Assembly (NCBI GenBank): GCA_018241765.1 | Contig: JAFEDD010000027.1 | Location: 37,592 to 92,979, forward strand | Direction: 5' to 3' | DNA: 55,388 nt | Source: Pseudomonadota bacterium | GTDB taxonomy: Bacteria; Pseudomonadota; Gammaproteobacteria; Burkholderiales; Casimicrobiaceae | Shown: positions 11,100 through 55,227 of the stretch, piece after piece | Position numbering within the stretch: the stretch's first letter is position 1 | How the letters are laid out: each line of letters opens with the position of its first letter | The notes under the pieces: generated by a model | What the model saw: the letters and a program-made list of their open reading frames with translations, nothing else | What the model was told of the DNA's origin: nothing | The model's database searches: none | Made by a program: the position numbers and the translations under genes

Positions 11100-12680
11100 C
11101 TATTTGACCGTGATCCACTGATACTCGAGGTAGTTGTCGGCGCGGTGCACGACGTTCACGTTGCTGCGGGCGGCCCACGGGATGACCTGGCGATGCAGCG
11201 GGATGTGGTTCACGGCGTCGTTGTGCGCGAGCAACGCTTCCTTGATCAGCGCTTCGCGCTTCTTCGGGTCGACTTCCTTGCTCTGCGCGGCGGCGGCGGC
11301 ATCGAGCTTGTCGTTCTTGTAGTTGCCGTAGTTGTAGTCGCCAATGCCGCCCGGCGCGCGGTTGCGCAGCACCGGCGTCAGCGTGGTTTCCGCATCGGTG
11401 ATGGCGCCGCCCCAGCCGAGCATGTAGAGCGAGACGTCGAGCTTGTCGAGGCGCGGGAAGTAGACGGCGCGCGGCTGCGCATCGAGCTTCACCTTGATGC
11501 CGATCTTCGCCCACATCGCGGCGAGCGCCTGGCAGATCTTCTCGTCATTGATGTAGCGGTTGTTCGGGCAGTGCATGGTGACGTCGAAGCCATCCTTGTA
11601 GCCGGCCTCGGTCATCAGCTTCTGCGCGGCGGCGACGTCGTACGGGCGGCGCTTCTCGATGGCGGCATCGTTGTAGGCACCAAGCGGCGAGGGGGTGATG
11701 CCGCCGGTCGGGTAGGCCTGGCCGCGCATGAGCTTCGACTTGATCGCCTCGATGTCGACCGCCTGATACATCGCCTGACGAACGCGCTTGTCCTTGAAGG
11801 GGTTCTTGCCCTTCAGGCTGGAGTAGAGCAGTTCATCACGCGCCTGGTCCATGCCGATGAAGATGACGCGGTTTTCGATGCCGTTGATGACCTTGACGCT
11901 GGGCGTTTTCTCCAGGCGATCGAGGTCCTGCGGCGGCGGGTCGAGGATGAAATCCACCTCACCGGAGACGAGGGCGGCGACGCGCGTGGCGTCGTTCTTG
12001 ATGGAGTTGTAGGTGACCGAGGTGACGTTGCCCTCGGGCTTGCCCCACCACTGGTCGTTGCGCTTCCAGATGGTTTTCACGTCGGGCTGGCGGCTGACGA
12101 GTCGATACGGGCCGGTGCCGTTGGCGTTGAGCGAGGTGAACTTCTCTTCCTTGTTCTTGAAGTCGAGCGGCGTTGTCGCGTTGTTTTTCTCGCACCAGAT
12201 CTTGCTCATGATGAAGATCTGGTTGACGTGGTCGAGAAAGATCGGGTTGGGCTCCTTCAGCTTGAACTCGACCGTGTAATCGTCGATCTTCTTCGGCGTG
12301 CCCGACTGGTTGGCGTAGACGCGCAGCTGCGAGGTCGGCGCCTTGGCGCGCTCGATGGAGAAGACGACGTCATCGGCGGTGAACGGTGTGCCGTCATGGA
12401 ACTTCACGCCCCGGCGCAGCTTGAACTGCCAGGTCAGCGGGTCGACCTGCTTCCACTCGGTGGCGAGCCCGGCGCCGAGCTTGAGCTTCTTGTCGCGCAC
12501 GAGCAGGAATTCGTAGACCTGCGAGTTGACCGAGTTGGTCAAGCCTTCGTTCTGCGAATGCGGGTCCATTGTCTGCGGGTCGCCCGAGGCGGCCCAGCGC
12601 AGAGGGTTGGCGCAGACGCTCGTGGCCACGAGTGCGGCGGCGCAGGCGGTCAGGGCGAACAGGTGATTGAGGGTCTTCAT
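11100..12680 (-). CDS. ABC transporter substrate-binding protein, dipeptide/oligopeptide type (SBP family 5)
   Basis: A 526-residue periplasmic solute receptor. The signal peptide ends near residue 24 (SVCA|NPL). The mature start PLRWAASGDPQTMDPHSQNE, the block LTWQFKLRRGVKFHDGTPFT and NGTGPYRL are hallmarks of the DppA/OppA family. The ligand may be a peptide but could be another small molecule. The ATG at 12680 is the only start directly before the signal peptide; the reading frame stays open far upstream, but only as antisense of hrpA. No permease or ATPase gene is adjacent, so its transporter must be encoded elsewhere. A terminator follows at 11058-11080, making it a single-gene unit. Confidence 0.9.
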   Translation of the reverse strand: MKTLNHLFALTACAAALVATSVCANPLRWAASGDPQTMDPHSQNEGLTNSVNSQVYEFLLVRDKKLKLGAGLATEWKQVDPLTWQFKLRRGVKFHDGTPFTADDVVFSIERAKAPTSQLRVYANQSGTPKKIDDYTVEFKLKEPNPIFLDHVNQIFIMSKIWCEKNNATTPLDFKNKEEKFTSLNANGTGPYRLVSRQPDVKTIWKRNDQWWGKPEGNVTSVTYNSIKNDATRVAALVSGEVDFILDPPPQDLDRLEKTPSVKVINGIENRVIFIGMDQARDELLYSSLKGKNPFKDKRVRQAMYQAVDIEAIKSKLMRGQAYPTGGITPSPLGAYNDAAIEKRRPYDVAAAQKLMTEAGYKDGFDVTMHCPNNRYINDEKICQALAAMWAKIGIKVKLDAQPRAVYFPRLDKLDVSLYMLGWGGAITDAETTLTPVLRNRAPGGIGDYNYGNYKNDKLDAAAAAQSKEVDPKKREALIKEALLAHNDAVNHIPLHRQVIPWAARSNVNVVHRADNYLEYQWITVK

Positions 12681-12778
12681 CGAAAGCGGCTCTCGTTGTC
12701 TCGTTGGTAGGCAGTGCGGACGCGGCAAGTCTATCCACGGCGGAGTGATTTGCGTCCATGGATAAACCCTGATGCAAA

Positions 12779-12896
12779 CAACTTCTTTCGAAAAGGCGCA
12801 TCCACGACAGGCTTGCAGCGAAGAATCGCCATAAGTCGACTTTCGGCAATTTCGCGCGCCAAGCCCGTCATGGATGGGCATTTCAGCGCAATGCTG
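12779..12896. repeat. Palindromic intergenic repeat, copy A (diverged)
   Basis: A 118-bp imperfect palindrome centred at 12837.5. The core AAGTCGACTT (12833-12842) is perfect. The inner arms at about 12797-12815 and 12860-12878 pair with three mismatches (for example CAAGCC on the left complement and CAAGCCCGTCATGGATG on the right). Outer arms are decayed but begin at the same 58.5-base distance from the centre as in copies B and C. It lies between the divergent binding-protein and hrpA genes and covers two spurious upstream ATGs of the hrpA frame. Confidence 0.75.
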
Positions 12897-12962
12897 TTGT
12901 GTCGCGACATAGAATTCGCGCCGCGATTGCCCTCCCGTCCGCGTTTTTTTGCCCTGTCTTCC

Positions 12963-15900
12963 GTGCCGTCTTCGATCCCTGACCTCGACCGCAGCGCGCT
13001 GCTGCTTCGCGATTACCGCCGCCTTGCACGCCGTGCGAACGCCGGCGGGCGCGAGCAGCGCGCCGCCGAATGGGCACGCGCGCAGACGCGCTTTCGCGAA
13101 CGTCTGGCCCGGCTGCCCGCCGTTCGCTATGCGCCGGGGCTGCCGGTGTCCGATCGCGCCGATGAGGTCGCGGCGCTGATCCGCGCGCATCAGGTCGTCG
13201 TCGTCACCGGCGAGACGGGCTCCGGCAAGACGACGCAACTGCCCAAGATCGCGCTGGCGGCGGGGCGCGGCCGCCACGGGTTGATCGGCCACACGCAGCC
13301 GCGGCGCATCGCGGCGCGCAGCGTGGCCGAGCGCATCGCGAGCGAACTGGGCGAGGAAGTCGGGCGCTCCGTCGGCTACAAGGTTCGCTTCACCGAGCGC
13401 GGTGACCAGGACGGATTCATCAAGCTGATGACCGATGGCATCCTGCTCGCCGAGACCCAGACCGACCGCCATCTCGAAGCCTACGACACGCTGATCATCG
13501 ATGAGGCGCACGAGCGCTCGCTGAACATCGATCTCCTGCTCGGCTACCTGAAGCAACTGCTGCCGCGTCGGCCCGACCTGAAGGTCATCATCACCTCGGC
13601 CACCATCGACGCGGAGCGCTTCGCGCGGCACTTCGCCACACCGGAGGGTGCCCCGGCGCCGCTGATCGCCATCTCCGGACGCACCTACCCCGTCGAGGTT
13701 CGCTATCGTCCGCCGGCCGCCGAAGAGGACGACGAGGAGCCGATCGAGCAGGCCATCGCCGACGCCATCGACGAACTCTGGCGCAGCGGCCCGGGGGATG
13801 TGCTGGTGTTCCTTCCCGGCGAGCGCGAGATTCGCGAGACGCAGGACATCCTGCGCCGTCGACTGCGGCCAGGCACGGAACTGCTGCCGTTGTTCTCGCG
13901 CCTTGCCGTGGCCGATCAGCAGCGCATCTTCGCCGGCAGCAGCGGGCATCGCGTGGTGCTCTCCACCAACGTCGCCGAGACGTCGCTGACGGTGCCGGGC
14001 ATCCGCTACGTCGTCGACACCGGCCTTGCGCGCTTGAACCGCTACAGCGTCAAGAACAAGGTGCAATTGCTGCAGATCGAGAGGATCTCGCAGGCCAGCG
14101 CCAACCAGCGTGCGGGGCGTTGCGGCCGCGTGGGGCCGGGCATCTGCGTGCGCCTCTATGCCGAGGAAGACTTCGCGCAGCGCGATGCCTTCACCGACCC
14201 GGAGATTCTGCGCTCGTCGCTGGCCGGGGTGATTCTGCGCCTCGCCGCGCTCGGTTTCGGTCGCGTGCAGGACTTTCCGTTCATCGAGCCACCGTCGAGT
14301 CGTGCCATCGCCGATGGCACGGCGTTGTTGCAGGAACTGGGCGCGCTGGCCGACGACGGCGCGCTGACCACCATCGGAGCCGAGCTTGCGCGGCTGCCGC
14401 TCGATCCGCGCATCGGGCGCATGCTGATCGAAGCGAAGCGTCTCGGCGTGCTGGCCGAGGTGCTGGTCATCGCGGCGGCGCTCTCGGTGCCCGACCCGCG
14501 CGAGCGGCCGTTCGAAGCGCGCGACGCGGCCGACCGTGCGCACCAATGGTTCAAGGATGCCAAGAGCGATTTTCTGTCGCTGCTGAACATCTGGAAGTTC
14601 TTCCTCGAACTGCGCGAGGAGGGGGGCCACAAGCAACAAGTCCGCGCCTGTCGCGAAAAATTCCTGAACTGGTTGCGGCTGCGCGAATGGCGCGATCTGC
14701 ACGGACAACTGGTGCAGACGCTGCGCGAACTGCGCTGGAACGTCGATGGCGAACTCGCCCGCGAGGCACCCTTCGAGGCGCTGCATCGCGCGCTGCTGCC
14801 GGGGCTTCTCGGCAATATCGGCGTCAAGAGCGACGAGGGCGATTTCTATCTCGGCGCCCGCGGCATCAAGTTCCACCCCTTCCCCGGCAGCGGCGTCGAC
14901 CGCAAGGGCCTGAAGTGGCTGGTGGCGGCCGAGCTCGCCGAAACCACGCGCCTCTATGCGCGCACCATCGCCCGCATCGACCCGGCGTGGATCGAGCCGG
15001 CCGCCGGGGACGTGGTGACGCGCACCTGGTTCGAGCCGAAATGGGATCGCGCGAGCGGTCAGGTGATCGCCAGCGAACGGGTATCGCTGTACGGACTGGC
15101 CATCGTGCCGCGCCGTCGCGTCAACTACGGCCGCATCGCGCCGGTCGAGGCGCACTCGATTTTCGCGGTGGCGCTGGCGATGGGCGAGGTCGATACCGGG
15201 GCGCCGTTCTATGCCCACAATCTGCGCCTCGTGAAGGAGGTGCGCTCGCTCGAGGACCGCGCGCGGCGCAACGATGTGCTGGTCTCGGATGAGACGATCG
15301 CCGCCTTCTATGCGGCGCGGGTGCCGACCCATATCGCCGGACGCGCCGAGCTCGAGCAGTGGCTGCGCGGCGAGGACCTCGGCGAGCGAGCGCCGGCCGA
15401 GCGTGCCGAGGTTCGCGCGAGCCGCGATCAGGCGCTTCGCTTTACGCGCGAGCAACTGATGCGGCACGGCGCCGAGGCGATCACCGAGGAGCAATTCCCG
15501 AAGACGCTCCGGCTCGGCGATTTCACGGTGCCGGTCAGCTACCGCTTCGAGCCCGGCCATCCGCTCGACGGTGTCACCGCACGCGTGCCGCTGGCGCTGC
15601 TCAATGCGGTCGAACCGCGCTACGCCAGCTGGCTCGTGCCCGGCCTGTGGCGCGACAAGATCGGCGTCTACCTGAAGGGGTTGCCCAAGGCCGAGCGCGG
15701 GCGCGTGCAGCCCGTCCCCGACACCGTCACCGCGTTCCTCGAACTGGCGACGCCGCGTGAGCAGGCGCTGCCCGACGCGTTGCTGGATTTTCTGCGTGAC
15801 TACCTGAATCTGGCGGTCGCACCGTCGGTGTGGGACCGTCTCGAGGTGCCCGCGCACCTGACACTCAACCTGCGCGTCATCGATGATGAGGGCAACGAAC

Positions 15901-16877
15901 TGGCGATGGGGCGCGATCTCGACGCGTTGCAGCAGGAATTCGGCGCGGTGGCGCGGCTCGCCTTCCAGCGCGTCGACGATGACGACGCTGCGGCCACCTC
16001 GGTCGAACGCACCGGCCTCACCACGTGGGCGATGGGTTCGCTGCCGGCGGTGATCGCGGTGCGCCGTGGCGGCCGCAACGTCAACGCCTATCCGGCCTGC
16101 GTCGATGAAGGCGACAGCGTCGCCGTTCGCCTCTTCGAAACCGCGGCCGAAGCCGAGCGCGCGCATCGGCGTGGCGTCGTGCGGCTGGCTTCGTTCGAAT
16201 TGCGCCAGCAGCTGCGTCAGTGGGAGAAGGGCCCCGGCGGATTCACGACCGCCGCGCTGCAACTGAAAAGCGCGATCGGTACGGCGCAGCTTCTGGCCGA
16301 TTTCAATGCCACGCTCGCCGACCGCGCGATCCTCGGTGAAGATCCGCTGCCTCGCGACGAGGCGCACTTTCGGGAACAGGTCGCTCGCGCCAAACAGCGC
16401 CTGCCGGTCGTCGCCGAGGCGCTTGGCCGGACGCTGGCGCAGGTCGCCGAAGCCTACGCCGCGCTTCAGGCGCTCTTGTTCGGGCCGACGGCGCGCAACA
16501 AGACGATCGTGCCGACGCTTGCAGCATGGCGCGACCGGCTCGTCCACTCCGGATTTCTGGCCGCGACGCCGTGGGCTCAACTGCCCCATCTGCCGCGCTA
16601 CCTTCGCGCGCTCGGCAAGCGATTGGACAAGTTCCAGTCGATGCCCGAACGCGAGCGACGCCACGCGCCGCTGCTGGCGGACTACTGGGCGCAATGGCAG
16701 AGCCGGGTTGCCGCCGACGGGGTGACGGCGAGCGACGCGCTGCTCGCGTTTCGCTGGCAGATCGAGGAGCTGCACGTGTCGCTCTTTGCGCAGGAGCTGA
16801 AGACGCCCTACCCGGTTTCCGGCAAACGGCTCGACCGCCTTTGGGATGAAATCGTGGCATCGATGCCACGGTCCTGA
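12963..16877 (+). CDS. hrpA: ATP-dependent RNA helicase HrpA (DEAH box)
   Basis: A 1304-residue DEAH-box helicase acting on RNA, with a known role of E. coli HrpA in translation quality and ribosome rescue. Walker A is GETGSGKT (83-90). The DEAH box is at 180-183 in IIDEAHERSLNID, motif III is ITSATID, and motif VI is NQRAGRCGRVG. The winged-helix, ratchet and large C-terminal DUF3418-type region follow. The GTG at 12963 gives a length nearly equal to E. coli HrpA (1300) and places RDYRRLARR where E. coli has RDRLRFSRRL. Upstream in-frame ATGs at 12870 and 12891 lie inside repeat copy A and would add a non-homologous extension. No Shine-Dalgarno is evident at any candidate. Confidence 0.95.
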   Translation: MPSSIPDLDRSALLLRDYRRLARRANAGGREQRAAEWARAQTRFRERLARLPAVRYAPGLPVSDRADEVAALIRAHQVVVVTGETGSGKTTQLPKIALAAGRGRHGLIGHTQPRRIAARSVAERIASELGEEVGRSVGYKVRFTERGDQDGFIKLMTDGILLAETQTDRHLEAYDTLIIDEAHERSLNIDLLLGYLKQLLPRRPDLKVIITSATIDAERFARHFATPEGAPAPLIAISGRTYPVEVRYRPPAAEEDDEEPIEQAIADAIDELWRSGPGDVLVFLPGEREIRETQDILRRRLRPGTELLPLFSRLAVADQQRIFAGSSGHRVVLSTNVAETSLTVPGIRYVVDTGLARLNRYSVKNKVQLLQIERISQASANQRAGRCGRVGPGICVRLYAEEDFAQRDAFTDPEILRSSLAGVILRLAALGFGRVQDFPFIEPPSSRAIADGTALLQELGALADDGALTTIGAELARLPLDPRIGRMLIEAKRLGVLAEVLVIAAALSVPDPRERPFEARDAADRAHQWFKDAKSDFLSLLNIWKFFLELREEGGHKQQVRACREKFLNWLRLREWRDLHGQLVQTLRELRWNVDGELAREAPFEALHRALLPGLLGNIGVKSDEGDFYLGARGIKFHPFPGSGVDRKGLKWLVAAELAETTRLYARTIARIDPAWIEPAAGDVVTRTWFEPKWDRASGQVIASERVSLYGLAIVPRRRVNYGRIAPVEAHSIFAVALAMGEVDTGAPFYAHNLRLVKEVRSLEDRARRNDVLVSDETIAAFYAARVPTHIAGRAELEQWLRGEDLGERAPAERAEVRASRDQALRFTREQLMRHGAEAITEEQFPKTLRLGDFTVPVSYRFEPGHPLDGVTARVPLALLNAVEPRYASWLVPGLWRDKIGVYLKGLPKAERGRVQPVPDTVTAFLELATPREQALPDALLDFLRDYLNLAVAPSVWDRLEVPAHLTLNLRVIDDEGNELAMGRDLDALQQEFGAVARLAFQRVDDDDAAATSVERTGLTTWAMGSLPAVIAVRRGGRNVNAYPACVDEGDSVAVRLFETAAEAERAHRRGVVRLASFELRQQLRQWEKGPGGFTTAALQLKSAIGTAQLLADFNATLADRAILGEDPLPRDEAHFREQVARAKQRLPVVAEALGRTLAQVAEAYAALQALLFGPTARNKTIVPTLAAWRDRLVHSGFLAATPWAQLPHLPRYLRALGKRLDKFQSMPERERRHAPLLADYWAQWQSRVAADGVTASDALLAFRWQIEELHVSLFAQELKTPYPVSGKRLDRLWDEIVASMPRS

Positions 16878-22060: not shown

Positions 22061-22086
22061 GCGGGTCGAGCCCCGCATTTCATCGT

Positions 22087-22208
22087 ATCAACTTTTTTCG
22101 CAAAGCCGCATCCATAACGGGCTTGGCACTTGATTCATCGAAAAGTCGACTTTTCACAAAAACGCGTTGCAATCCCGTTATGGATGCGTCTTTCGGCAAA
22201 AAGTTGAT
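22087..22208. repeat. Palindromic intergenic repeat, copy B (best conserved)
   Basis: A 122-bp palindrome centred exactly at 22147.5. Three perfectly paired concentric blocks are visible. The outer 11 bp are ATCAACTTTTT (22087-22097) with AAAAAGTTGAT (22198-22208). The inner 15 bp are CGCATCCATAACGGG (22107-22121) with its complement at 22174-22188. The central 14-bp palindrome is AAAAGTCGACTTTT (22141-22154). It lies between the convergent mltB and queF genes, where it could also act as a terminator or RNA end-protecting hairpin. No target-site duplication was found directly at its edges. Confidence 0.88.
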
Positions 22209-22266
22209 GCATTGCCGAGCATGGCCATGAGGGCGTCAACGAGCCGCGCGACCGGCAGGGTCATCG

Positions 22267-22707
22267 CTACACGGCGGCGGGATTGGCCAGCCCGAAGCGC
22301 GTCAGATCGACCGTCGGTTTCGGCGTCCACCCCTCGGCCTGATGTTCGGCGACGACGTTGGTGTAGATGCCGCCGCGCACGTTCCAGCGCGCGGTGACGC
22401 GGGCGAAACGCGGAGCGATGGCGCGGACGATCGCGTCGAGCACGTCGTTGGTCACTTTCTCGTGAAAGGCGCCGACGTCGCGGAAGCTCCACATGAACAT
22501 CTTCAGCGCTTTCAGTTCGATGCAGGTGGCATCCGCGATGTACTCGATCGTGAAATGCGCGAAGTCCGGCTGCCCGGTGAGCGGGCAGTGGCAGGTGAAT
22601 TCGGGGATCTGAATGTGAATCAGATAATCCCGACCCGGATGCGGATTTGCGAAGGTGTCGAGGTGGGTTTGTGGTGCCGAGGGCGTCGAGGGTTGGCGTT
22701 CAGACAT
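22267..22707 (-). CDS. queF: NADPH-dependent 7-cyano-7-deazaguanine reductase (QueF, type I)
   Basis: A 146-residue unimodular enzyme that reduces the nitrile preQ0 to preQ1 in queuosine tRNA-modification synthesis. The T-fold motifs are clear. The catalytic Cys41 lies in [10 protein letters not shown], with Asp48 following. ELKALK (64-69) is the QueF signature (form ExKSxK) that binds NADPH and substrate, and FHE (81-83) is also conserved. The length matches the short YkvM/QueF-I class rather than the 280-residue E. coli type. No preQ1 riboswitch-like leader was seen. It is divergent from smc; the 140-bp gap contains the smc promoter. Confidence 0.95.
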
Positions 22708-22847: not shown

Positions 22848-25800
22848 ATGCGCCTTACATCGATCAAGCTCTCCGGGTTCAAGTCCTTCGTCGACCCGAC
22901 CACCATCGCACTGCCCGGGCAACTCGTTGGCATCGTGGGGCCCAATGGCTGCGGCAAGTCCAACGTGATCGACGCGGTGCGCTGGGTGCTGGGTGAAAGC
23001 AAAGCCTCGGCGCTGCGCGGCGAATCGATGGACGACGTGATCTTCAATGGGGGTGGCGAGCGCAAGCCGGTGGCGCGCGCGAGCGTCGAGCTGGTGTTCG
23101 ACAACGCCAGCGGTCGCGCCGCAGGCCAGTGGAGCCAGTACGCCGAGTTGTCCGTCAAGCGCGTCGTGCAGCGTGACGTCGGCTCCAGCTACTACATCAA
23201 CAATCAGGCCGTGCGCCGCCGTGACATCCTCGACGTGTTCCTGGGCACCGGGCTCGGCCCGCGCGCCTACGCGGTGATCGAGCAGGGCATGATCTCGCGC
23301 ATCATCGAGGCCAAGCCGGAAGAGCTGCGCGTATTCCTCGAAGAGGCGGCCGGTGTGTCGCGCTACAAGGAGCGGCGCAAGGAGACCGAGAGCCGCTTGG
23401 GCGACACCCGCGAAAACCTCGCTCGCGTTCACGACATCCAGACCGAGCTCACCTCGCAGGTCGAGCGTCTCGAAGGTCAGGCCAAGGTTGCCGCGCGTTA
23501 CCGCGAGCTGGAAAAGGAAAAGCTCGAAAGCCAGGCGCTGCTGTTCGCGCAGCGGCGCGAAGAGGCGCTCCGACAGCGTGAGTCCGCCGTGCGCGTGCTC
23601 GGCGAGAACGAAACCGCATTGCTGGCCAAAGAGACCGAGGTGCAGGCGCTGGCCACGCAGCTCGAGGCGTTGCGGCAGGACGTGTTCACCCGCAACGACG
23701 CGCAGCACACTGCGCAGGGAGCGTTCTACGAGATCAACTCCGAAGTCACGCGCATCGAGCAGCAGCTCGCGTTCGAGCGCGACCGGGCACAACGCGTGGC
23801 GCAGGAGGTCGAGCAGCGGCAGGCACGCCTCGCGCACGCGCAGGAGCAGGCCGGTCAACTCGAAGAAGCGCTGGCCGACGCCAACGACGCCGTCGCCGTC
23901 GCCTCGGCGAAGCATGTCGAGCAAAAGGAATTCGTCGACACCGCCGGCACTGCGCTGCCACTGGCCGAATCGGCGCTGCGTGCGGCATCCACCGCGCTCT
24001 CCGATGTGCAGCAGGCGATCGGCGCCATCGACAACGATGCGCAGTTGTCGCAACTGAAAAAATCCACGACCGAAAAAAGCATCGCCCAATTGCAGGCACG
24101 GCAACTGCGCCTCACGCAGGAGCGCGAACGCCTCATTGCGCCGGAAGACGCTGAACTGATCGCCATCGATGAGCAGCTCGACGGCGAACGCGCCGAACTC
24201 GAGGCGGCCGAGCAGACTGCGCAGGAGGCGGAGGCCGCCGCCGAGCACGCCGACGAAGAACGCAGTCACCGCCGCGCCGAGCTCGACGTCGCCGCGCGTC
24301 GGCTGAGCGAGCTCAAGGCGCGTGACAGCGCCATCGGCAGCGTGCAGGCGAAGTTCGGCAATCGCGGGGAAGGCCAGTTGCAACGCTGGCTCGACGAACA
24401 CCACGTTCGCGGCGACAAATTCTGGTCGCAACTCAAGGTCGATGCCGGCTGGGAAGATGCGGTGGAAGCCGTGTTGCGCGACCGCCTCAATGCGTTGCCG
24501 CTGGCCTCGCTCGATGATGCGCTGCGCCTGCCGGTGCCGCCGGCACGCTTGACGGTCTACGCCGGCGCGGGCAGCACCGATGCGCGGGCCATCGCTGGCA
24601 ACGTCCTGCTCGCGCACGTCCACGCCACAAGCGCCGCCATCGCAACGTCGGTGGCGCACTGGCTGCATGGCGTGCGCACGGCCGAGACGATGGCGGAGGC
24701 GCTGTCCGCGCGCGCCTCGCTCACTCCGGGTGAGGTCATCGTGACCCGTGAAGGGCATCTGGTCGGCCTCAACAGCATCACCTGGTTCGCGCCCGATGAG
24801 GCCGTGCATGGCGCGATGGCGCGGCAACGCGAACTCAGCGAAATCGCAGCGCAGCTGACCGAGGCGCAGGCCGCGGCGAGCAAGGCCGAAACGGCGTTCA
24901 GCCACGCCGACAAGCGCTATCAGGATTTGCGCGTGCAGGCCACGCAGCAGCGCGGCGCCATCGTCAGCGTCCAGCGCCGCGTGCATAACCTCGAAGTCGA
25001 GCGCATGCAGATCGAGCAGGCGCGAGCGCAGGCGAGCGAACGCACGCAGCAGATTTCCGCCGAACTCGGCGAGATCGGCGAGTCCATCGCCGCCGAACAC
25101 GAGCATGTGCAGGCGCACATCGAGGCCCTCGCGATCAGCGAAGAGAAACGCAGCGCCGCGCATGCCGAACGCGAAGTTCGTCGCGGCGCGCGCAATGAGT
25201 GCGACGTCGCCCTGGTCAAGGCCCGCGAGGTGCTGCGCGGCGCGGAAATCGCGCTGCGTGACGCCATGTACGGCGAACGCGCAGCGCAGGAGCGGGTGCA
25301 GGACCTGTCGCGCCGCATCGCCGCCAATCAGCAGCAAATCAAGGAGCTCGACGCCGACGTCGCGCGCCTGAGCGGAGAACAAAAGAGCATTCTGCTGTCG
25401 CCGCTGGAGGAGGGTTTGCAAGCCCAGCTCAACGTACGCGTCGAACGCGAGGCGGCCTTGAAGCTCGCCCGCGAGGCGGTGGACGCCGCCAACGCCGCGC
25501 TGCGCGAAGCCGACGAGCAACGCCTCAAGCTTGAACAAGAGCTGGAGCCCATTCGCAAGAAGATCGAAGACGCGCGTCTGCGCCAGAACTCCGCCGAGAT
25601 CAACCTGGCGCAGTTCGAAGAGCAACTGGCGGCGCTCAAGGTCGATGCCGACTGGCTGCTCCAGGCGCTCGACCACGCGCCGCGTGCAGCGGAACTGCAA
25701 CGCACGGTGGCGCGGGTCGACGGCGAGATCGCGCAGCTCGGCGCCGTGAACCTCGCCGCGCTGGACGAATTGCAACAGGCCTCCGAGCGCAAGCTCTACC

Positions 25801-26354
25801 TCGATGCGCAGGCGGCCGACTTGGCCGAAGCCGTGCAGACGCTGGAGGACGCGATTCGCCGCATCGACCGCGAAACCCGCGCCCAGTTGCAGGACACCTA
25901 CAACAAGGTCAACGAGCAGTTCGGCCGACTGTTCCCGACGCTGTTCGGCGGCGGGCAGGCGAAGCTGGTGCTGACCGGTGAAGAGATTCTCGACGCCGGC
26001 ATTCAGGTCGTGGCGCAGCCGCCGGGCAAACGAAACTCATCGATCCATCTGCTCTCCGGTGGCGAGAAGGCTTTGACCGCCACGGCCCTCGTGTTCGCGC
26101 TGTTTCAGCTCAATCCCGCCCCGTTTTGCCTGCTGGACGAGGTCGATGCGCCGCTCGATGATCCGAATACCGAGCGCTTCTGCCGATTGGTGCGGGAAAT
26201 GTCGAGCGCAACGCAATTCCTCTTCATCTCGCACAACAAGATCGCCATGGAGATGGCGGAGCAACTGATTGGCGTCACGATGAATGAGCCGGGGGTGTCG
26301 AGGATCGTCGGCGTCGATGTGGCGCAAGCCCTTCGCATGGCAGAGGCTGCCTGA
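22848..26354 (+). CDS. smc: Chromosome segregation protein SMC
   Basis: A 1168-residue condensin ATPase that compacts and helps segregate the chromosome with ScpA and ScpB. Walker A GPNGCGKSNV is at residues 31-40. Two long coiled-coil arms (about 165-480 and 650-1000) flank a hinge around 485-640 (GWEDAVEAVLRDRLNAL, then GEVIVTREGHLVGLNSITWF). The C-terminal head has the ABC signature LSGGEKALTA (about 1068) and Walker B FCLLDEVDAPLDD. Length is typical. No Shine-Dalgarno is seen before the ATG. It opens the smc-zipA-ligA-galU cluster common in Betaproteobacteria. Confidence 0.97.
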   Translation: MRLTSIKLSGFKSFVDPTTIALPGQLVGIVGPNGCGKSNVIDAVRWVLGESKASALRGESMDDVIFNGGGERKPVARASVELVFDNASGRAAGQWSQYAELSVKRVVQRDVGSSYYINNQAVRRRDILDVFLGTGLGPRAYAVIEQGMISRIIEAKPEELRVFLEEAAGVSRYKERRKETESRLGDTRENLARVHDIQTELTSQVERLEGQAKVAARYRELEKEKLESQALLFAQRREEALRQRESAVRVLGENETALLAKETEVQALATQLEALRQDVFTRNDAQHTAQGAFYEINSEVTRIEQQLAFERDRAQRVAQEVEQRQARLAHAQEQAGQLEEALADANDAVAVASAKHVEQKEFVDTAGTALPLAESALRAASTALSDVQQAIGAIDNDAQLSQLKKSTTEKSIAQLQARQLRLTQERERLIAPEDAELIAIDEQLDGERAELEAAEQTAQEAEAAAEHADEERSHRRAELDVAARRLSELKARDSAIGSVQAKFGNRGEGQLQRWLDEHHVRGDKFWSQLKVDAGWEDAVEAVLRDRLNALPLASLDDALRLPVPPARLTVYAGAGSTDARAIAGNVLLAHVHATSAAIATSVAHWLHGVRTAETMAEALSARASLTPGEVIVTREGHLVGLNSITWFAPDEAVHGAMARQRELSEIAAQLTEAQAAASKAETAFSHADKRYQDLRVQATQQRGAIVSVQRRVHNLEVERMQIEQARAQASERTQQISAELGEIGESIAAEHEHVQAHIEALAISEEKRSAAHAEREVRRGARNECDVALVKAREVLRGAEIALRDAMYGERAAQERVQDLSRRIAANQQQIKELDADVARLSGEQKSILLSPLEEGLQAQLNVRVEREAALKLAREAVDAANAALREADEQRLKLEQELEPIRKKIEDARLRQNSAEINLAQFEEQLAALKVDADWLLQALDHAPRAAELQRTVARVDGEIAQLGAVNLAALDELQQASERKLYLDAQAADLAEAVQTLEDAIRRIDRETRAQLQDTYNKVNEQFGRLFPTLFGGGQAKLVLTGEEILDAGIQVVAQPPGKRNSSIHLLSGGEKALTATALVFALFQLNPAPFCLLDEVDAPLDDPNTERFCRLVREMSSATQFLFISHNKIAMEMAEQLIGVTMNEPGVSRIVGVDVAQALRMAEAA

Positions 26355-48638: not shown

Positions 48639-49865
48639 ATGTTTCGTGTGTCATCTCCCGTCGCTCCCATGCTCCCATTCTCCGCTCTCCCGCCGCTCGT
48701 GCGCGCCGTCGTGCGTGCGCTCGCCCGATCATTCGTTTTGCTGCTCGCGCTCGCCATCGAGTCCCCGCTGCACGCAGCCGACGAAGCGGCGAAGAACCGC
48801 GTCGCCACGCGAGCGTCGCTGACGGTCAGCGTGGCGCGGTTGGAGTCGTCCATGTGGCCGCGCACGCTGGAGGCAAGCGGCAACATCGCCGCATGGCAGG
48901 AGGCGAGCATCGGGGCCGAAGTCCCTGGGCTTCGACTGAGTGAGGTGCGCGTGGATGTGGGCGATCATGTCCGACGCGGGCAGGTGCTCGCGACGTTTGC
49001 CGACGCGACGATGCGCGCTGAATTGGCGCAGGCCTCGTCGGCCGCGACCGAGGCGGAGGTGAGCCTGGCGGCAGCGCGTGGCAATGCCGATCGGGCGCGC
49101 GCGCTCGCCGGCAGCGGCGCGATGTCGACGCAGGAGATCGAGCAGTACACGAACGCGGCGGCGGCGGCTTCCGCGCGACTCGACTCGGCTCGGGCGGCGC
49201 GCGATGCAGCGCGTTTGCGGCTCGGGTTCGCGCGGGTGGTGGCACCCGATGACGGCATCATCTCCCAGCGCAATGCCACGCTCGGCGCGGTGGCGAATCC
49301 CGGGCAGGAACTGTTTCGGATGATTCGACGCGGCCGCCTCGAGTGGCGAGCCGAAGTCACGGCCTTCGAGTTGGCCGGCATCCGGATCGGACAGCGGGCA
49401 CGGGTGTCGCTGCCAGGCGGTGCGCAGGTCTCCGGCAAGGTGCGGGCGTTGGCGCCCACCGTCGATGCAGCGTCGCGCAACGCCATCGTCTACGTCGAGC
49501 TGGAGCACCATGCGGATGCCCGCGCCGGAATGTTCGCGCGCGGCGAATTCGCGCTCGGCGCGCAGCCGGCGCTCAGCTTGCCGCAGGCCGCCGTCGTCGC
49601 GCGCGATGGCTTCAGCTACGTCTTTCAATTGACCGCCGGCAATCGGGTGACGCAGCGCAAGGTCACGACCGGGCGGCGCGTCGGGGAGCGTGTCGAGATC
49701 ACGGCGGGGCTCGGGGAGGGCGATCAGGTCGCGGCGACCGGCGCGGCCTTTCTCGCCGATGGCGACGTGGTGCGCGTCGCCTCGGAGGCGCCGCCGACGC
49801 CGCCGGCGAAAGCGGAACCTGCGGCCGCTGCGAAGGCGGCGACCGGCAAGGGGCGCGCGCCGTGA
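48639..49865 (+). CDS. RND efflux periplasmic adaptor (membrane fusion protein)
   Basis: A 408-residue adaptor linking an RND pump to an outer-membrane channel. A signal-like hydrophobic segment is near residues 24-46 (FVLLLALAIESPLHAADE). A lipoyl/biotinyl half-motif LEASGNIAAWQEASIGAEVP and its partner VRVDVGDHVRRGQVLATF surround an alpha-helical hairpin (about 118-190, rich in Ala/Arg). FARVVAPDDGIISQRNATLG follows, then the beta-barrel domain. The C-terminus is an Ala/Pro/Lys tail. The start may be the ATG at 48639 or ten codons later. The stop overlaps the pump gene start (GTGA). No outer-membrane factor gene is present in the window. Confidence 0.9.
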   Translation: MFRVSSPVAPMLPFSALPPLVRAVVRALARSFVLLLALAIESPLHAADEAAKNRVATRASLTVSVARLESSMWPRTLEASGNIAAWQEASIGAEVPGLRLSEVRVDVGDHVRRGQVLATFADATMRAELAQASSAATEAEVSLAAARGNADRARALAGSGAMSTQEIEQYTNAAAAASARLDSARAARDAARLRLGFARVVAPDDGIISQRNATLGAVANPGQELFRMIRRGRLEWRAEVTAFELAGIRIGQRARVSLPGGAQVSGKVRALAPTVDAASRNAIVYVELEHHADARAGMFARGEFALGAQPALSLPQAAVVARDGFSYVFQLTAGNRVTQRKVTTGRRVGERVEITAGLGEGDQVAATGAAFLADGDVVRVASEAPPTPPAKAEPAAAAKAATGKGRAP

Positions 49866-52800
49866 TCAACGTCTCGTCGTGGTCGATCCGCAACCCGATC
49901 CCGGCCCTGATGTTCTTCTTCCTGCTGACCTTGGCAGGATTGTTCGCCTTTTCGGCGATGAAGGTGCAGAACTTTCCGGATCTCGATCTGCCGACGGTCA
50001 CGGTGGCGGCGGCGCTGCCCGGCGCCTCTCCGGGACAGCTCGAAAACGAGGTGGCGCGCAAGATCGAAAACTCGATCGCCACCTTGCAGGGCGTCAAGCA
50101 CATCTACACACGGGTGCAGGACGGCGGAGTCACCATCACCACTGAATTCCGGCTCGAAAAGCCGGTGCAGGAGGCCGTCGACGACGTGCGCTCGGCGCTT
50201 GCCCGCGTGCGTGCCGATTTGCCCGGTGATTTGCGTGATCCGGTGGTGCAGAAGATCGATCTTGCGTCGAGTCCGGTGCTGGCCTTCACCATTGCCTCGA
50301 CGCATCTCGACGACGAGGCGTTGTCGTGGTTTGTCGATGACACGCTGAGCCGCAAACTGTTGGCCGTTCCGGGCGTCGGTGCGGTCAATCGGGTCGGTGG
50401 CGTCGAGCGCCAAGTGCAGGTCGAACTCGATGTGGCGCGGTTGCAGGCGTTGCGCGTGAGTGCGGGCGAGGTGTCGCGTCAGTTGCGGCAGGTGCAGATC
50501 GAGGCGGCGGGCGGGCGCACGGATCTTGGTGGGGCCGAGCAGGCGGTGCGTGTGTTGGCCAACGTGAAGTCGGCAGCCGAGCTGGCCGGCTACCAGATCG
50601 CGCTGAACGATGGGCGTCGCCTGCGCCTCGATCAGATGGCGCGCATCCGCGACGGCATCGCCGAGCCACGCTCGGCGGCGCTGCTCGATGGGCAGCCGGT
50701 GATCGGCTTCGAGGTGGCGCGATCGAAGGGGGCGAGCGAGGTCGAGGTGGGCGCCGGGGTTCGTGCGGCGCTGGCGCAGTTGCGGCTGGAGCACCCGGAC
50801 CTGAGCATCAGCGAGTCGTTCGATTTCGTCACGCCGGTGAAAGACGAGTACGAGGCGTCGCTGAAGCTCCTGCTCGAAGGGGCGTTTCTCGCCGTGCTCG
50901 TCGTGTTTCTGTTCCTGCGCGAATGGCGTGCGACGTTCGTCTCGGCGGTGGCGCTGCCGCTGGCGGCCATACCGGCGTTCATTGGCATGCATGCGCTGGG
51001 CTTTTCCATCAACATCATCACGCTCTTGGCGCTGTCCCTCGTGGTGGGCATCCTGGTCGACGATGCGATCGTCGAGGTCGAGAACATCGTGCGCCATCTC
51101 CGGCTCGGCAAGACGCCGTATCAGGCGGCGATGGAGGCGGCCAACGAGATCGGGCTCGCGGTCATCGCCACCACGTTCACGCTGATCGCGGTGTTCCTGC
51201 CGACGGCGTTCATGAGCGGCATCGCCGGCCGCTTTTTCAAGCAGTTCGGGTGGACGGCGGCGCTCGCGGTGTTCGCCTCGCTCGTCGTCGCCCGCATGCT
51301 GACGCCGATGATGGCCGCCTATCTGTTGCGTCCGGCGGTGGGCGAGCATCGCGATCCGCGTTGGCTCGCGCTCTACCTGCGGGCGGCGACGTGGTGCCTG
51401 CACCATCGCTGGATCACGTTGCTCGCGGCGGCGCTCTTCTTCGCGGGCTCCCTGGCCCTCATTCCGTTGTTGCCGACGGGCTTCGTGCCACCGGATGACA
51501 ATTCTCAGACGCAGGTGCGCATCGAGCTTGCGCCCGGCTCCACGCTGGCCGACACCCGCGCGGCTGCCGAACTGGCGCGCTCGCGGGTGATGGCGGTGCG
51601 CTACGTCACCTCGGTCTACACGACGATCGGCGGTGGCGCCGCCGGCAGCGATCCCTTCGTGCCGCAAGGACTCGCCGAAGTGCGCAAGGCGACGCTGACG
51701 ATCCAGCTTGCACCGCGCGCTGAGCGGGCGGTGCGCAAGCAGCCGATCGAGGCCGACATTCGGCGCGCGCTGGAGGCAGTGCCCGGCATTCGCAGCACGG
51801 TGGGCTTTGGCGGCTCCGGCGAGAAGTACATCCTGGTGCTCGCCAGCGACGATCCCGCCGCACTGTCGAGCGCTGCCCGTGCCGTCGAGCGCGATCTGCG
51901 CACGCTGCCCGAGGTTGGCAGCATCATCTCGACGGCGAGTCTCGTGCGTCCCGAGGTCAACGTGACGCCGCGCATCGCCACGGCGGCGGAGCTCGGCGTG
52001 ACTAGCGCCGCAATCGCCGACACGCTGCGGCTGGCGACGGTGGGTGACTACGACCAGTTGCTGCCCAAGCTCAATCTCGCCTCGCGTCAGGTGCCGATCG
52101 TCGTCAAGCTCGATCGCGATGCACGCACCGATCTGGAAACGCTCGGGCGACTCAGCGTGCCCGGCAGCAAGGGGCCGGTGATGCTCGCGGCGGTCGCCGA
52201 TCTCTCGCTCGGCAGCGGGCCCGCGCTGATCGATCGCTACGACCGGGCGCGCAACATCAATTTCGAAATCGAACTGTCGGGCGCGCCGCTGGGCGACGTC
52301 GTCGCCGCGGTGGCCAGGTTGCCCTCGATGCAGTCGCTGCCGCCGGGCGTGCGCGTGGTGGAAGTGGCCGACGCCGAGGTGATGGGCGAACTCTTCGCGA
52401 GCTTCGGGCTGGCGATGCTGATCGGGGTGCTCTGCATCTACGTGGTGCTGGTGCTCCTGTTCCGTGATTTCGTGCATCCGGTGACCATTCTCGCGGCGCT
52501 GCCGTTGTCGCTCGGTGGCGCCTTCGTCGGTTTGCTGCTGGCGCGTGCGAGTTTTTCGATGCCTTCGCTGATCGGGCTCGTCATGCTGATGGGCGTGGCG
52601 ACGAAGAACTCGATCCTGCTCGTGGAGTACGCCATCGTCGCGCGGCGCGATCGCGGCCTCGGCCGCATCGATGCGCTGCTCGACGCCTGCCACAAGCGCG
52701 CCCGCCCGATCATCATGACCACCATCGCGATGGCCGCTGGCATGCTGCCCATTGCGCTCGGCCTCGGTGGCGCCGACACCAGTTTCCGCGCGCCGATGGC

Positions 52801-52963
52801 GATAGCGGTGATCGGCGGATTGATGACCTCCACCGTCCTCTCGCTGCTGGTGATTCCCGCCGTGTTCACCGTCGTCGATGATGTCGAACGCGCCATGCGC
52901 CGCCTGCTTCGTCGCGCCTCGGCACCGCCGCACGCGCCGTCGGCGGCGCCCGATTCGCCCTGA
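49862..52963 (+). CDS. RND family efflux transporter permease
   Basis: A 1033-residue proton-driven inner-membrane pump of the AcrB/MdtB-like superfamily. TM1 begins WSIRNPIPALMFFFLLTLAG. Two large periplasmic loops follow (about 33-330 and 560-860), and twelve transmembrane helices are predicted. TM4 carries the paired acidic residues GILVDDAIVEVENIVRHL needed for proton relay, and KNSILLVEYA marks TM10. The sequence resembles the MdtBC/heavy-metal-free HAE1 group. The GTG at 49862 overlaps the adaptor stop by four bases. The substrate is unknown; its place beside the arn operon suggests envelope stress defence, which is inference. Confidence 0.93.
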   Translation: MINVSSWSIRNPIPALMFFFLLTLAGLFAFSAMKVQNFPDLDLPTVTVAAALPGASPGQLENEVARKIENSIATLQGVKHIYTRVQDGGVTITTEFRLEKPVQEAVDDVRSALARVRADLPGDLRDPVVQKIDLASSPVLAFTIASTHLDDEALSWFVDDTLSRKLLAVPGVGAVNRVGGVERQVQVELDVARLQALRVSAGEVSRQLRQVQIEAAGGRTDLGGAEQAVRVLANVKSAAELAGYQIALNDGRRLRLDQMARIRDGIAEPRSAALLDGQPVIGFEVARSKGASEVEVGAGVRAALAQLRLEHPDLSISESFDFVTPVKDEYEASLKLLLEGAFLAVLVVFLFLREWRATFVSAVALPLAAIPAFIGMHALGFSINIITLLALSLVVGILVDDAIVEVENIVRHLRLGKTPYQAAMEAANEIGLAVIATTFTLIAVFLPTAFMSGIAGRFFKQFGWTAALAVFASLVVARMLTPMMAAYLLRPAVGEHRDPRWLALYLRAATWCLHHRWITLLAAALFFAGSLALIPLLPTGFVPPDDNSQTQVRIELAPGSTLADTRAAAELARSRVMAVRYVTSVYTTIGGGAAGSDPFVPQGLAEVRKATLTIQLAPRAERAVRKQPIEADIRRALEAVPGIRSTVGFGGSGEKYILVLASDDPAALSSAARAVERDLRTLPEVGSIISTASLVRPEVNVTPRIATAAELGVTSAAIADTLRLATVGDYDQLLPKLNLASRQVPIVVKLDRDARTDLETLGRLSVPGSKGPVMLAAVADLSLGSGPALIDRYDRARNINFEIELSGAPLGDVVAAVARLPSMQSLPPGVRVVEVADAEVMGELFASFGLAMLIGVLCIYVVLVLLFRDFVHPVTILAALPLSLGGAFVGLLLARASFSMPSLIGLVMLMGVATKNSILLVEYAIVARRDRGLGRIDALLDACHKRARPIIMTTIAMAAGMLPIALGLGGADTSFRAPMAIAVIGGLMTSTVLSLLVIPAVFTVVDDVERAMRRLLRRASAPPHAPSAAPDSP

Positions 52964-53030
52964 ATTCGGAGCGCCGCGAGCATCGGCTCGTGGGGAGCAT
53001 TTCGGGTTCGCGGGCGTCCGAATGGCGTAT

Positions 53031-53148
53031 CAGCTTTTCATTGAAACCCGCATCCAAAACGGGCTTGGAGCCTGATTTGGCGTAAAGACGACTTTTGCCA
53101 TTATCACGCTCCAAGCCCGCTTTGGATGCGGCTTGTGGCGAAAAGTTG
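53031..53148. repeat. Palindromic intergenic repeat, copy C
   Basis: A 118-bp palindrome centred at 53089.5. Inner arms of 23 bases (53049-53071 and 53108-53130) pair at 22 positions. Outer arms CAGCTTTTC (53031-53039) and GAAAAGTTG (53140-53148) pair with one G-T wobble. The core AAAGACGACTTT (53084-53095) has one mismatched pair. Inner and outer arms lie 40.5 and 58.5 bases from the centre, identical to copy B. Confidence 0.87.
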
Positions 53149-53166
53149 CTTGTTCCGTCGTCGTAG

Positions 53167-53346: not shown

Positions 53347-55227
53347 ATGGGTGCGTATCGCGATCACTATCGGCGCTCGATCGAAGCGCGCGACGAATTC
53401 TGGGCGGACGAGGCGAAGCTGATCGACTGGCAGACACCGCCGTCGCAGATTTGTGATTTTTCGCGCCCGCCGTTTGTGCGCTGGTACGTCGGCGGCCGCA
53501 CCAATCTTTGCCACAACGCGGTCGACCGGCACGTCGCCACGCGCGGCGAGCAGACGGCACTGCACTTCATCTCGACCGAAACCGACGCCGAGGTGAAATA
53601 CAGCTACCGTGAACTGCACGCCGAGGTCAACCGGGTGGCCGCGATGCTGCAAAGTCTGGGCGTCGGTCAGGGTGACCGCGTGCTGATCTACATGCCGATG
53701 ATTCCCGAGGCTGTGTTTGCGATGCTCGCCACGGTGCGTATCGGCGCCATCCACTCGGTCGTCTTCGGTGGTTTCGCATCCGCCTCGCTCGCCACGCGCA
53801 TCGATGACGCGCAGCCCAAGGTCATCGTCTCGGCCGACGCCGGCATGCGCATGGGCAAGGTGGTGCCGTACAAGCCACTGCTCGATGCCGCGATCGACCT
53901 CGCCGCGAAGAAGCCGGCCCGCGTGCTGCTGTTCGACCGCAAGCTCGAGCCGATGGCGCTGAAGGCCGGCCGCGACGTCGACTGGGCGGCGCTGCGCGCC
54001 ACGCACCACGAGGCCGCCGTCCCGGTCGCATGGGTCGATTCGACGCACCCGAGCTACATCCTCTACACCAGCGGCACCACGGGCCGCCCCAAGGGCGTGC
54101 AGCGCGACACCGGCGGCTACGCCGTCGCGCTCACCTCGAGCATGCGCAAGGTCTTCGCGCTCGACCCCGGCGAGACGATGTTCTGCACCAGCGACATCGG
54201 CTGGGTCGTCGGCCACAGCTACATCGTCTATGGCCCGCTGCTCAATGGCAACACGACCATCATGTACGAAGGCGTCCCGCTGCGGCCCGACCCCGCCATC
54301 TGGTGGAAGATTTGCGCCGAAAACAACGTGAAGACGATGTTCTCCTCGCCCACCGCCATCCGCGTGCTGAAGAAGCAGGACCCGGACTACATGAAGCGGC
54401 ACAAGCTGCCCGCGCTGCGCTATCTGTTCCTCGCTGGCGAGCCGCTCGACGAGCCCACCGCGCGATGGGTCAGCGACGCGCTGGGCGGCACGGCGATCAT
54501 CGACAACTACTGGCAGACCGAGTCCGGTTGGCCCATCCTGTCGGCGCAGATCGCCGTCGAGGACACGCCGCGCAAGTTCGGCTCGCCCTCGTTCCCGGTC
54601 TACGGCTTCGACGTCGTGCTGAAGAGCGAGGACGGCAGCGCCGTCGGCGCCGACCAGAAAGCCGTGCTCACCATCCGGCCGCCGCTGCCGCCGGGCGCGC
54701 TCAGCACCGTCTGGGGCGACGACGAACGTTTCGTGTCCACCTATTTCGGCAGCTTCCGCGACGAGGCGCTCTACAACACCTTCGACTGGGCCACGCGCGA
54801 CGCCGATGGCTACTACTTCATCCTCGGTCGCACGGATGACGTCATCAACGTCGCCGGACACCGGCTCGGCACCCGCGAAATCGAGGAAGCCGTGCAAGGC
54901 AATGCGCTGGTCGCCGAATGCGCCGTCGTCGGCGTCGCCGATTCGCTGAAGGGGCAGGTGCCGGTCGCCTTCGTCGTGCTGAAGGACCCCTCGCAGGCGG
55001 GCGACGCCGCACGCAGCGCCATCGCCCAGACGGTCGATCGTGAGATCGGCGCCATCGCGCGGCCCGCCGCCGTGCACTTCGTCACGCTGCTGCCGAAGAC
55101 GCGTTCGGGAAAGCTGTTGCGGCGCTCGATCCAGGCGCTGGCCGAAGGGCGTGACCCCGGCGACCTGACGACCATCGAAGATCCCTCCGCGCTCGCACAG
55201 ATCAAGGGCGCGCTCGGTATTGCCTAA
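53347..55227 (+). CDS. prpE: Propionate--CoA ligase (propionyl-CoA synthetase)
   Basis: A 626-residue AMP-forming acyl-CoA synthetase that activates propionate for the 2-methylcitrate cycle. The ATP-binding motif YTSGTTGRPKGVQRDTGGYA is the PrpE-specific version (compare the QRD-GGY sequence in Salmonella PrpE). Further motifs are DNYWQTESGWP, TRDADGYYFILGRTDDVINV and the C-terminal TRSGKLLRRSIQAL with the acetylatable lysine. Length is typical. GGAGG six bases before the ATG at 53347 fixes the start; the frame is open further upstream but without a ribosome site. It stands alone here, without prpB, prpC or prpD. A 120-bp palindromic element follows the stop by 23 bases. Confidence 0.93.
   Translation: MGAYRDHYRRSIEARDEFWADEAKLIDWQTPPSQICDFSRPPFVRWYVGGRTNLCHNAVDRHVATRGEQTALHFISTETDAEVKYSYRELHAEVNRVAAMLQSLGVGQGDRVLIYMPMIPEAVFAMLATVRIGAIHSVVFGGFASASLATRIDDAQPKVIVSADAGMRMGKVVPYKPLLDAAIDLAAKKPARVLLFDRKLEPMALKAGRDVDWAALRATHHEAAVPVAWVDSTHPSYILYTSGTTGRPKGVQRDTGGYAVALTSSMRKVFALDPGETMFCTSDIGWVVGHSYIVYGPLLNGNTTIMYEGVPLRPDPAIWWKICAENNVKTMFSSPTAIRVLKKQDPDYMKRHKLPALRYLFLAGEPLDEPTARWVSDALGGTAIIDNYWQTESGWPILSAQIAVEDTPRKFGSPSFPVYGFDVVLKSEDGSAVGADQKAVLTIRPPLPPGALSTVWGDDERFVSTYFGSFRDEALYNTFDWATRDADGYYFILGRTDDVINVAGHRLGTREIEEAVQGNALVAECAVVGVADSLKGQVPVAFVVLKDPSQAGDAARSAIAQTVDREIGAIARPAAVHFVTLLPKTRSGKLLRRSIQALAEGRDPGDLTTIEDPSALAQIKGALGIA

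Follow-up and report, generated by a model that had tools for sequence, protein, structure and literature searches.

We suggest that the palindromic repeat analyzed here is a composite site in duplex DNA. In the source genome (G000), the copies conserve several sequence boxes whose distances from a two-fold axis are fixed, and the two arms vary independently of each other. We consider it probable, from the pattern of conservation, that each copy is a 124-bp, two-fold symmetric composite site that is held by selection and bound by a putative symmetric protein complex.

The window, i.e. the whole 55,388-nt stretch of DNA that was analyzed (contig C19, positions 37592-92979), holds three copies. 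A sequence-only reading had described them as diverged copies of one repeat, and all three were relocated, with ends within 1-3 bases of those given before. A covariance-model search found no fourth copy in the window at E<=1. The copies, their neighbors and the boxes of copy B are as follows.

12776..12899, no strand: copy A, whole element, covariance-model match, axis at 12837/12838
11100-12680, minus, and 12963-16877, plus: divergent neighbors of copy A, a solute-binding protein family 5 gene and a DEAH-type helicase gene with DUF3418, respectively
22086..22209, no strand: copy B, whole element, covariance-model match, axis at 22147/22148
ending at 22060, plus, and 22267-22707, minus: convergent neighbors of copy B, genes for a transglycosylase SLT domain protein and a QueF-like protein, respectively
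22087..22096, plus: copy B, left outer box, consensus WWCRRCTTTT
22106..22129, plus: copy B, left inner box, the "dialect" box whose sequence differs by species
22133..22136, no strand: copy B, left A/T tract, in which A and T replace each other at 13-14 bases from the axis
22142..22153, no strand: copy B, central box AAAGTCGACTTT, with TCGA at the axis
22159..22162, no strand: copy B, right A/T tract
22166..22189, minus: copy B, right inner box
22199..22208, minus: copy B, right outer box
53028..53151, no strand: copy C, whole element, axis at 53089/53090, with the center ACGA instead of TCGA
49862-52963, plus, and 53347-55227, plus: tandem neighbors of copy C, genes for an AcrB-family pump and an acetyl-CoA-synthetase-type AMP-binding enzyme, respectively

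The distances proposed for the inner and outer arms also hold, with CGCATCCA starting 41 bases and CAAC 59 bases from the axis. Of the perfect inverted blocks described in copy B, the outer block of 11 bp and the inner block of 15 bp stand, while the central block is 16 bp long (8-bp arms) and not 14 bp. A gene for an SMC-type chromosome condensation protein (window positions 22848-26354) lies one gene from copy B, probably by coincidence.

In the source genome (3.24 Mb in 76 contigs, about 90% complete), copy B had 73 BLAST matches, both strands counted, among the best 40 of 190 candidates, which excludes that the resemblance of the three sites is due to chance. A covariance model built from 25 copies (R1) matched all of the best 150 of 1410 candidates, with the palindrome being matched on both strands, and scanning the collected loci with a symmetrized matrix gave 92 distinct copies with no duplicates among them. 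Thus, the earlier description of a dispersed, structured, intergenic family with a fixed geometry is supported. The matrix scores of the 92 copies are 82-156, and the range from the threshold of 25 up to 82 is empty in the ~338 kb of loci scanned, using a matrix partly trained on the same copies and loci picked for holding strong matches. Had decay left as many degenerate copies as intact ones, these ~338 kb would be expected to contain some. There is one half element, at locus L194, and it also accounts for the only strong inner box outside elements in the scanned loci; uptake-like single motifs in this genome were rejected on this ground. In the same loci, another repeat is common to the flanks of some copies (L192, L194, L189, L195, L179 and L183), and near 2480-2590 of L194 a tandem unit abuts the half element. 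Two intact elements lie close together at L146 (axes 2062 and 3004, ~0.9 kb apart) and at L183 (axes 894 and 2062, ~1.2 kb apart), whereas the closest of the 92 sites listed for the congener G005 are never less than 3.5 kb apart.

The half-site profile from the 144 unshifted halves in the source genome consists of CRRCTTTT at 52-59 bases from the axis, AA(A) at 44-46, the inner box at 19-42 (SCGCATCCAYRACGGGCTTGSMGC), A/T at 12-15 and AAAGTC at the axis, with TCGA at 0. In these halves, the box positions mostly contain 1-2 bits of information and the spacers mostly 0.1-0.5 bits. At 13-14 bases from the axis, A and T interchange while G or C almost never occurs, as expected of minor-groove reading of duplex DNA. 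The standard spacing is present exactly in 56 of the 92 copies; 34 have only 1-bp shifts between the inner and outer boxes, and the remaining two also shift an inner box. Counted by half-site, 39/184 are shifted.

The sequence-only reading held that a folded hairpin is the conserved feature. This is not borne out within the source genome, where the arms do not covary: standard pairs amount to 73.5% in 25 copies versus 74.0% in shuffles, identical arm positions to 3534 in all 92 copies versus 3563 +- 35, and arm agreements to 2261 in the 56 copies with standard spacing versus 2297 +- 20. Positions 32 and 33 from the axis, within the inner box, have a modest excess (56 and 57 agreements versus 45 and 48.5 expected). 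Region by region, pairing did not rise above shuffles in G000 or JAEUPL, and the A/T steps in the 92 copies are conserved without complementarity. A small pairing excess is present in G005 (52.1% versus 49.7%, reached in 1 in 1000 shuffles, P 0.001; 64 copies found with a model that rewards pairing) and in the sister-clade species G007 (20 copies, P 0.024), and in their spacers it is ~1.6 sd at register 0. Arm covariation is strong when 56 copies from many species are pooled, which we attribute to each species having its own inner box. The inverted boxes would then account for the folding of the three window copies, which on both strands is more stable than in shuffles (z -3.3 to -9.5). Further copies exist and, as regards the hairpin, they largely keep the sequence without keeping the pairing, an outcome that the sequence-only reading had named as arguing against it. 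The family thereby warns of a common error, i.e. a covariation test for RNA structure on copies pooled across species is passed convincingly, and the signal vanishes inside the window's own genome.

The inner box is the part that differs between species. Across 16 copy sets, some of which come from the same organism and some of which hold only 2-5 copies, the half-site consensuses have in common CARCTTTT, the A/T step and AGTC|GACT, a constancy that is partly built in for the sets from the pattern scan, which fixed the outer and central boxes, while the G000, G005 and G007 sets were chosen otherwise. The inner box differs over the sets and reads CCGCATCCAtaACGGGCTTG in G000, cC.CaTtc.aa.tGGGCTt in G005 and GCCCAgTCAATATGGGC in G006, and is of the CGAC..CGGTCGTT types in G008, JAEUPL and JAKPSO. 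In JAKPSO, element and flank are near-identical at L102 and L119, either by segmental duplication or by assembly redundancy, and no other such pair was seen by eye. G007, with an AlaS that is 70% identical, has a different dyad, CCCAATTNAATTGGG / GCCCAATTNAATTGGGC, in the same register, and keeps CARCT, A/T and TCGA at the same distances as in G000 (20 sites). This genome holds 131 dyad pairs with <=3 mismatches, and none for the reversed control pattern. Of 21 perfect G007 dyads outside the listed pairs, 11 have a partner with >=11 of 17 matches near the expected distance and ten are without a recognizable partner, suggesting that some G007 copies are half-decayed. A reading of single inner dyads in this genome as possible autoregulatory operators was set aside; the partners of the 11/21 are often decayed, and no regulator was identified.

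All 92 copies located in the source genome are intergenic, 91 of the 92 by a crude codon-usage caller and copy A by the window gene calls. Gaps with an element (n=89) are convergent in 28, tandem in 52 and divergent in nine cases, compared to 17, 106 and 28 of the element-free gaps (n=151), and two, 17 and 17 of the element-free gaps of >=130 bp (n=36). In tandem gaps, the element is closer to the upstream stop codon in 41/53 cases (median 38 bp; copy C counted twice). When the genes adjacent to 242 sites are grouped by similarity (>=50% identity), 54 groups include at least two organisms, and in 52 of them the same gene end faces the element. Nineteen representatives of these groups were scanned for a cognate gene and yielded no candidate; most of them are housekeeping genes, including ybaB/recR, gatB, anmK, erpA, a gyrase/topoisomerase subunit A gene and an rsmB-type gene. 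The accD-folC gap contains the element in 9 of the 16 species in which the gene was found, and a variant in G007; no element is visible in this gap in G009, G011, G021 and G023, while G002 and G010 hold a remnant at best. Upstream of alaS, the element is present in six species and in G007. At these two places, framework scores are 17-28 of 28 where the element is present versus 14-16 where it is absent or misplaced.

In ten orthologous pairs of G000 and G005 sites, spacer identity is 16.1 of 44 versus 16.4 in non-orthologous pairs (P 0.66). Among the accD pairs, the closest retain a trace of spacer similarity (26 of 44 for G005-G012). Because orthologous spacers are as unlike as unrelated ones, position and boxes outlast neutral sequence. 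We take this persistence of boxes and place after spacer saturation as the strongest evidence for a probable function in situ. Only 10/64 G005 sites have a correctly facing similar neighbor in common with one of the 92 G000 sites (six of them on both flanks), as do 2/20 G007 sites in a sample that left out the alaS and accD sites. Thus, sites are also gained and lost. The sharing may be underestimated because G000 is ~90% complete and only the best candidates were scored. Overall, the site positions are partly ancestral.

Sampling one genome per species, the R1 model matched 9/21 genomes, all from one Burkholderiales genus, and the family is present in 16/17 species of this genus (G000, G005, G007 and 13 of 14 further congeners). 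The element was found in none of the three other genera of the family that were searched closely. A wider model (R2) with stricter filters matched 6/399 genomes of the order, all of this genus and thus 1/158 genera, when the best eight candidates per genome were scored; with the same scoring, no element was seen in the 157 other genera sampled. A pattern scan of an 84,980-species collection returned 45 stretches, each of which belongs to a MAG with Burkholderiales, Betaproteobacteria or Pseudomonadota in its title. Copy load within the genus is uneven: many congeners have at least 150 matching candidates, G002, G009, G010 and G021 have just 7-17 matches, and G023 has none. The small genomes of the genus, G009 and G023 (2.5-2.6 Mb), have few or no elements and no Y1 transposase match either. 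Copy B had no match in a plasmid collection, and the framework pattern had no exact match in viral contigs. The sequence-only reading had recognized no described family. Rfam gave no matches in the window at gathering score, and nothing describing the element was found in searches of open-licence PMC text. To the extent of those searches, the element is undescribed.

On the complete, single-contig chromosome of G005, R1 listed 92 sites (E up to 0.7, a score of them weak) and R2 added at least one. They fall in all 20 bins, are somewhat denser in the last quarter and depart only slightly from random placement toward evenness (gap CV 0.81 versus 0.99 +- 0.10, P 0.022). A GC-skew sample places the origin near the record start, with parB at 38 kb, and the terminus near 2.0-2.2 Mb; on this chromosome, the sites have no clear origin or terminus bias. 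A regular spacing or an ori/ter pattern is, thus, weak or absent. ParB was rejected as the cognate protein because each of ten genomes, whether or not it carries the element, has one strong ParB_N match (E<=1.6e-35). Weaker additional ParB_N matches are present in G000, G012 and G021, but also in the non-carriers G098 and G269, and this ten-genome search gave no carrier-specific candidate for a cognate protein.

In the model that we favor, a protein, probably as a dimer on each inner dyad with the dyad axes ~33 bases from the center, would bind together with one or more partners that read the constant outer boxes, the A/T steps and the TCGA center, and the complex would assemble on ~120 bp of DNA that is bent or wrapped. 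Changes in the inner box would accompany changes in the specificity of one partner, such that the site set of a genome moves to a new dialect within an unchanged framework. The box-and-spacer profile, the independent halves in G000, the identical register in G007 and the dialects count for this model, as do the persistence of orthologous sites, the empty score range between 25 and 82, and inner boxes that almost never occur alone in G000. Site turnover, the small excess of pairing in G005 and G007, the half-decayed G007 copies and the failure to find a cognate protein count against it. Also, copying should be the only way for a composite site of this length to arise; among the copies of G000 none was seen to be recent, which leaves the turnover hard to explain. 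The residual information in the spacers and the 1-bp shift in many copies slightly weaken the case as well. If the sites are bound by protein, their most likely role, which we put forward tentatively and by analogy, would be to serve as architectural or segregation marks along the whole chromosome, retained for the most part immediately downstream of genes, where promoters would be disturbed least. A role as protein road-blocks or insulators at gene ends would come next, and we regard it as rather doubtful.

An alternative that we consider unlikely is that the element is a non-autonomous mobile palindrome (MITE, ERIC or REPIN-like), which spread early in the genus under a transposase of lineage-changing specificity and of which the present copies are old residents. 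Its copies are dispersed, palindromic and intergenic and number ~100 per genome, and most of the G005 sites examined are not shared with known G000 sites. Moreover, Y1 transposases (Y1_Tnp) were matched in 5/7 congeners tested (11 places listed) and were not found in G009, with few sites, and G023, with none. REPINs, too, have conserved ends, a freer spacer and a proposed co-evolution with RAYTs (PMC3116915). Several observations argue against mobility, and with it against the suggestion of the sequence-only reading that these are MITE or REP/BIME-like elements. Among the 92 copies, no target-site duplication stood out (best of 2268 tests, five observed versus 0.87 expected). Spacer likeness among these copies averages 22.2 of 52 versus 22.15 in column-shuffled sets, and the best pair, at 39, equals the highest of 50 shuffled sets, with a slightly wider spread (3.8 versus 3.5); because spacers are on average no more alike than shuffled ones, there appear to be no recent copies in G000. 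Boxes are kept at old orthologous places after spacer saturation. Finally, no RAYT with matching ends was found at the four transposase loci searched. G000 has two Y1-transposase matches, and the one that was read encodes a REP-associated tyrosine transposase (L360, contig C24, 1000-2200) amid several GTAGG..CCTAC inverted repeats. These repeats look like a true REP/REPIN family in this genome, unrelated to the 124-bp element. At four of the 11 transposase loci, R2 had no matches at E<=10 and the inverted repeats differ from the element; a RAYT partner was rejected for the loci read.

Less probable still is an RNA reading, in which the element would form a structured or terminator-like hairpin at the 3' ends of genes and act on the transcripts of the flanking genes. 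The folding of the window copies, the enrichment of convergent gaps, the proximity to the upstream stop codon in tandem gaps, and the strong covariation across species together with the small excess within G005 and G007 would all fit such a hairpin. However, the covariation follows the dialects and is absent within G000 and JAEUPL, conservation of the A/T steps does not involve complementarity, the half-site profile has no T-run after the arms, and some of the copies are found ahead of a gene (alaS) or between same-strand genes (accD-folC). We give the lowest probability of all to a self-recognition or uptake signal with species dialects, maintained by biased recombination and not by local function. 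Species-specific versions, placement in intergenic regions and at gene ends, and partial turnover of sites are compatible with such a signal, and the dialects of the DNA uptake sequence (DUS) of Neisseriaceae show that the whole motif set of a genome can differ by species (PMC3630211). On the other hand, there are ~100 copies and not thousands, and each 124-bp unit is made up of several boxes with fixed spacing, of which the inner boxes hardly ever occur alone in G000.

Returning to the binding-site model, it is possible, and we hold this tentatively, that the sites belong to a new chromosome-organizing or insulating nucleoprotein system and that, in one genus, the full site set of a genome has changed its sequence several times alongside its binding protein. 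A large number of sites is generally expected to hinder a change in DNA-binding specificity. If the model is correct, the genus would represent a natural experiment in which specificity changes while about a hundred chromosomal sites follow; the nearest case cited for a change of a whole set is that of the uptake-sequence dialects. A genus-specific site set, partly beside housekeeping genes, also provides a defined bait for finding the protein.

The element shares features with several known systems. The foot of REP hairpins is of the GTAG type, while the outer box of the element, WWCRRCTTTT, is without GTAG. As in the REPIN/RAYT system (PMC3116915), inverted conserved blocks lie ~70 bp apart around a freer spacer, in intergenic regions, in ~100 copies and with a genome-specific sequence. 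Unlike REPINs, the element has additional outer boxes, a conserved TCGA center and A/T steps, it flanks no RAYT at the four loci searched, it is without within-genome compensatory changes in G000, and some of its sites are orthologous across species. ERIC, Correia (NEMIS) and MITE-like palindromes are likewise 100-200 bp long, intergenic and present in many copies, with a long predicted hairpin (PMC2229807); by contrast, the 124-bp element has no detected target-site duplication, and its conservation is one of boxes and spacers and not a uniform similarity between copies. The DUS of Neisseriaceae is a short motif in thousands of copies (PMC3630211), and its dialects resemble the element in being species-dependent versions of a genome-wide motif, while the element comprises ~100 symmetric composite sites per genome. 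Among chromosomal systems, the element is comparable to the nucleoid-occlusion and macrodomain sites (Noc, SlmA and MatP), as a candidate set of sequence-specific protein sites scattered over the chromosome; unlike them, it is composite and has no clear origin or terminus bias on the G005 chromosome. The parS sites of plasmids P1 and P7 are composite and combine, around a bend, constant boxes with discriminator boxes that differ by species, and there is one such centromere per plasmid; Noc, SlmA and MatP sites are single short palindromes. For the comparison with parS, the weaker additional ParB_N matches in the ten genomes occur in carriers and non-carriers alike. Thus, the element resembles P1/P7 parS in combining constant with species-specific boxes and differs from it in that ~100 sites are present per genome instead of one per plasmid.
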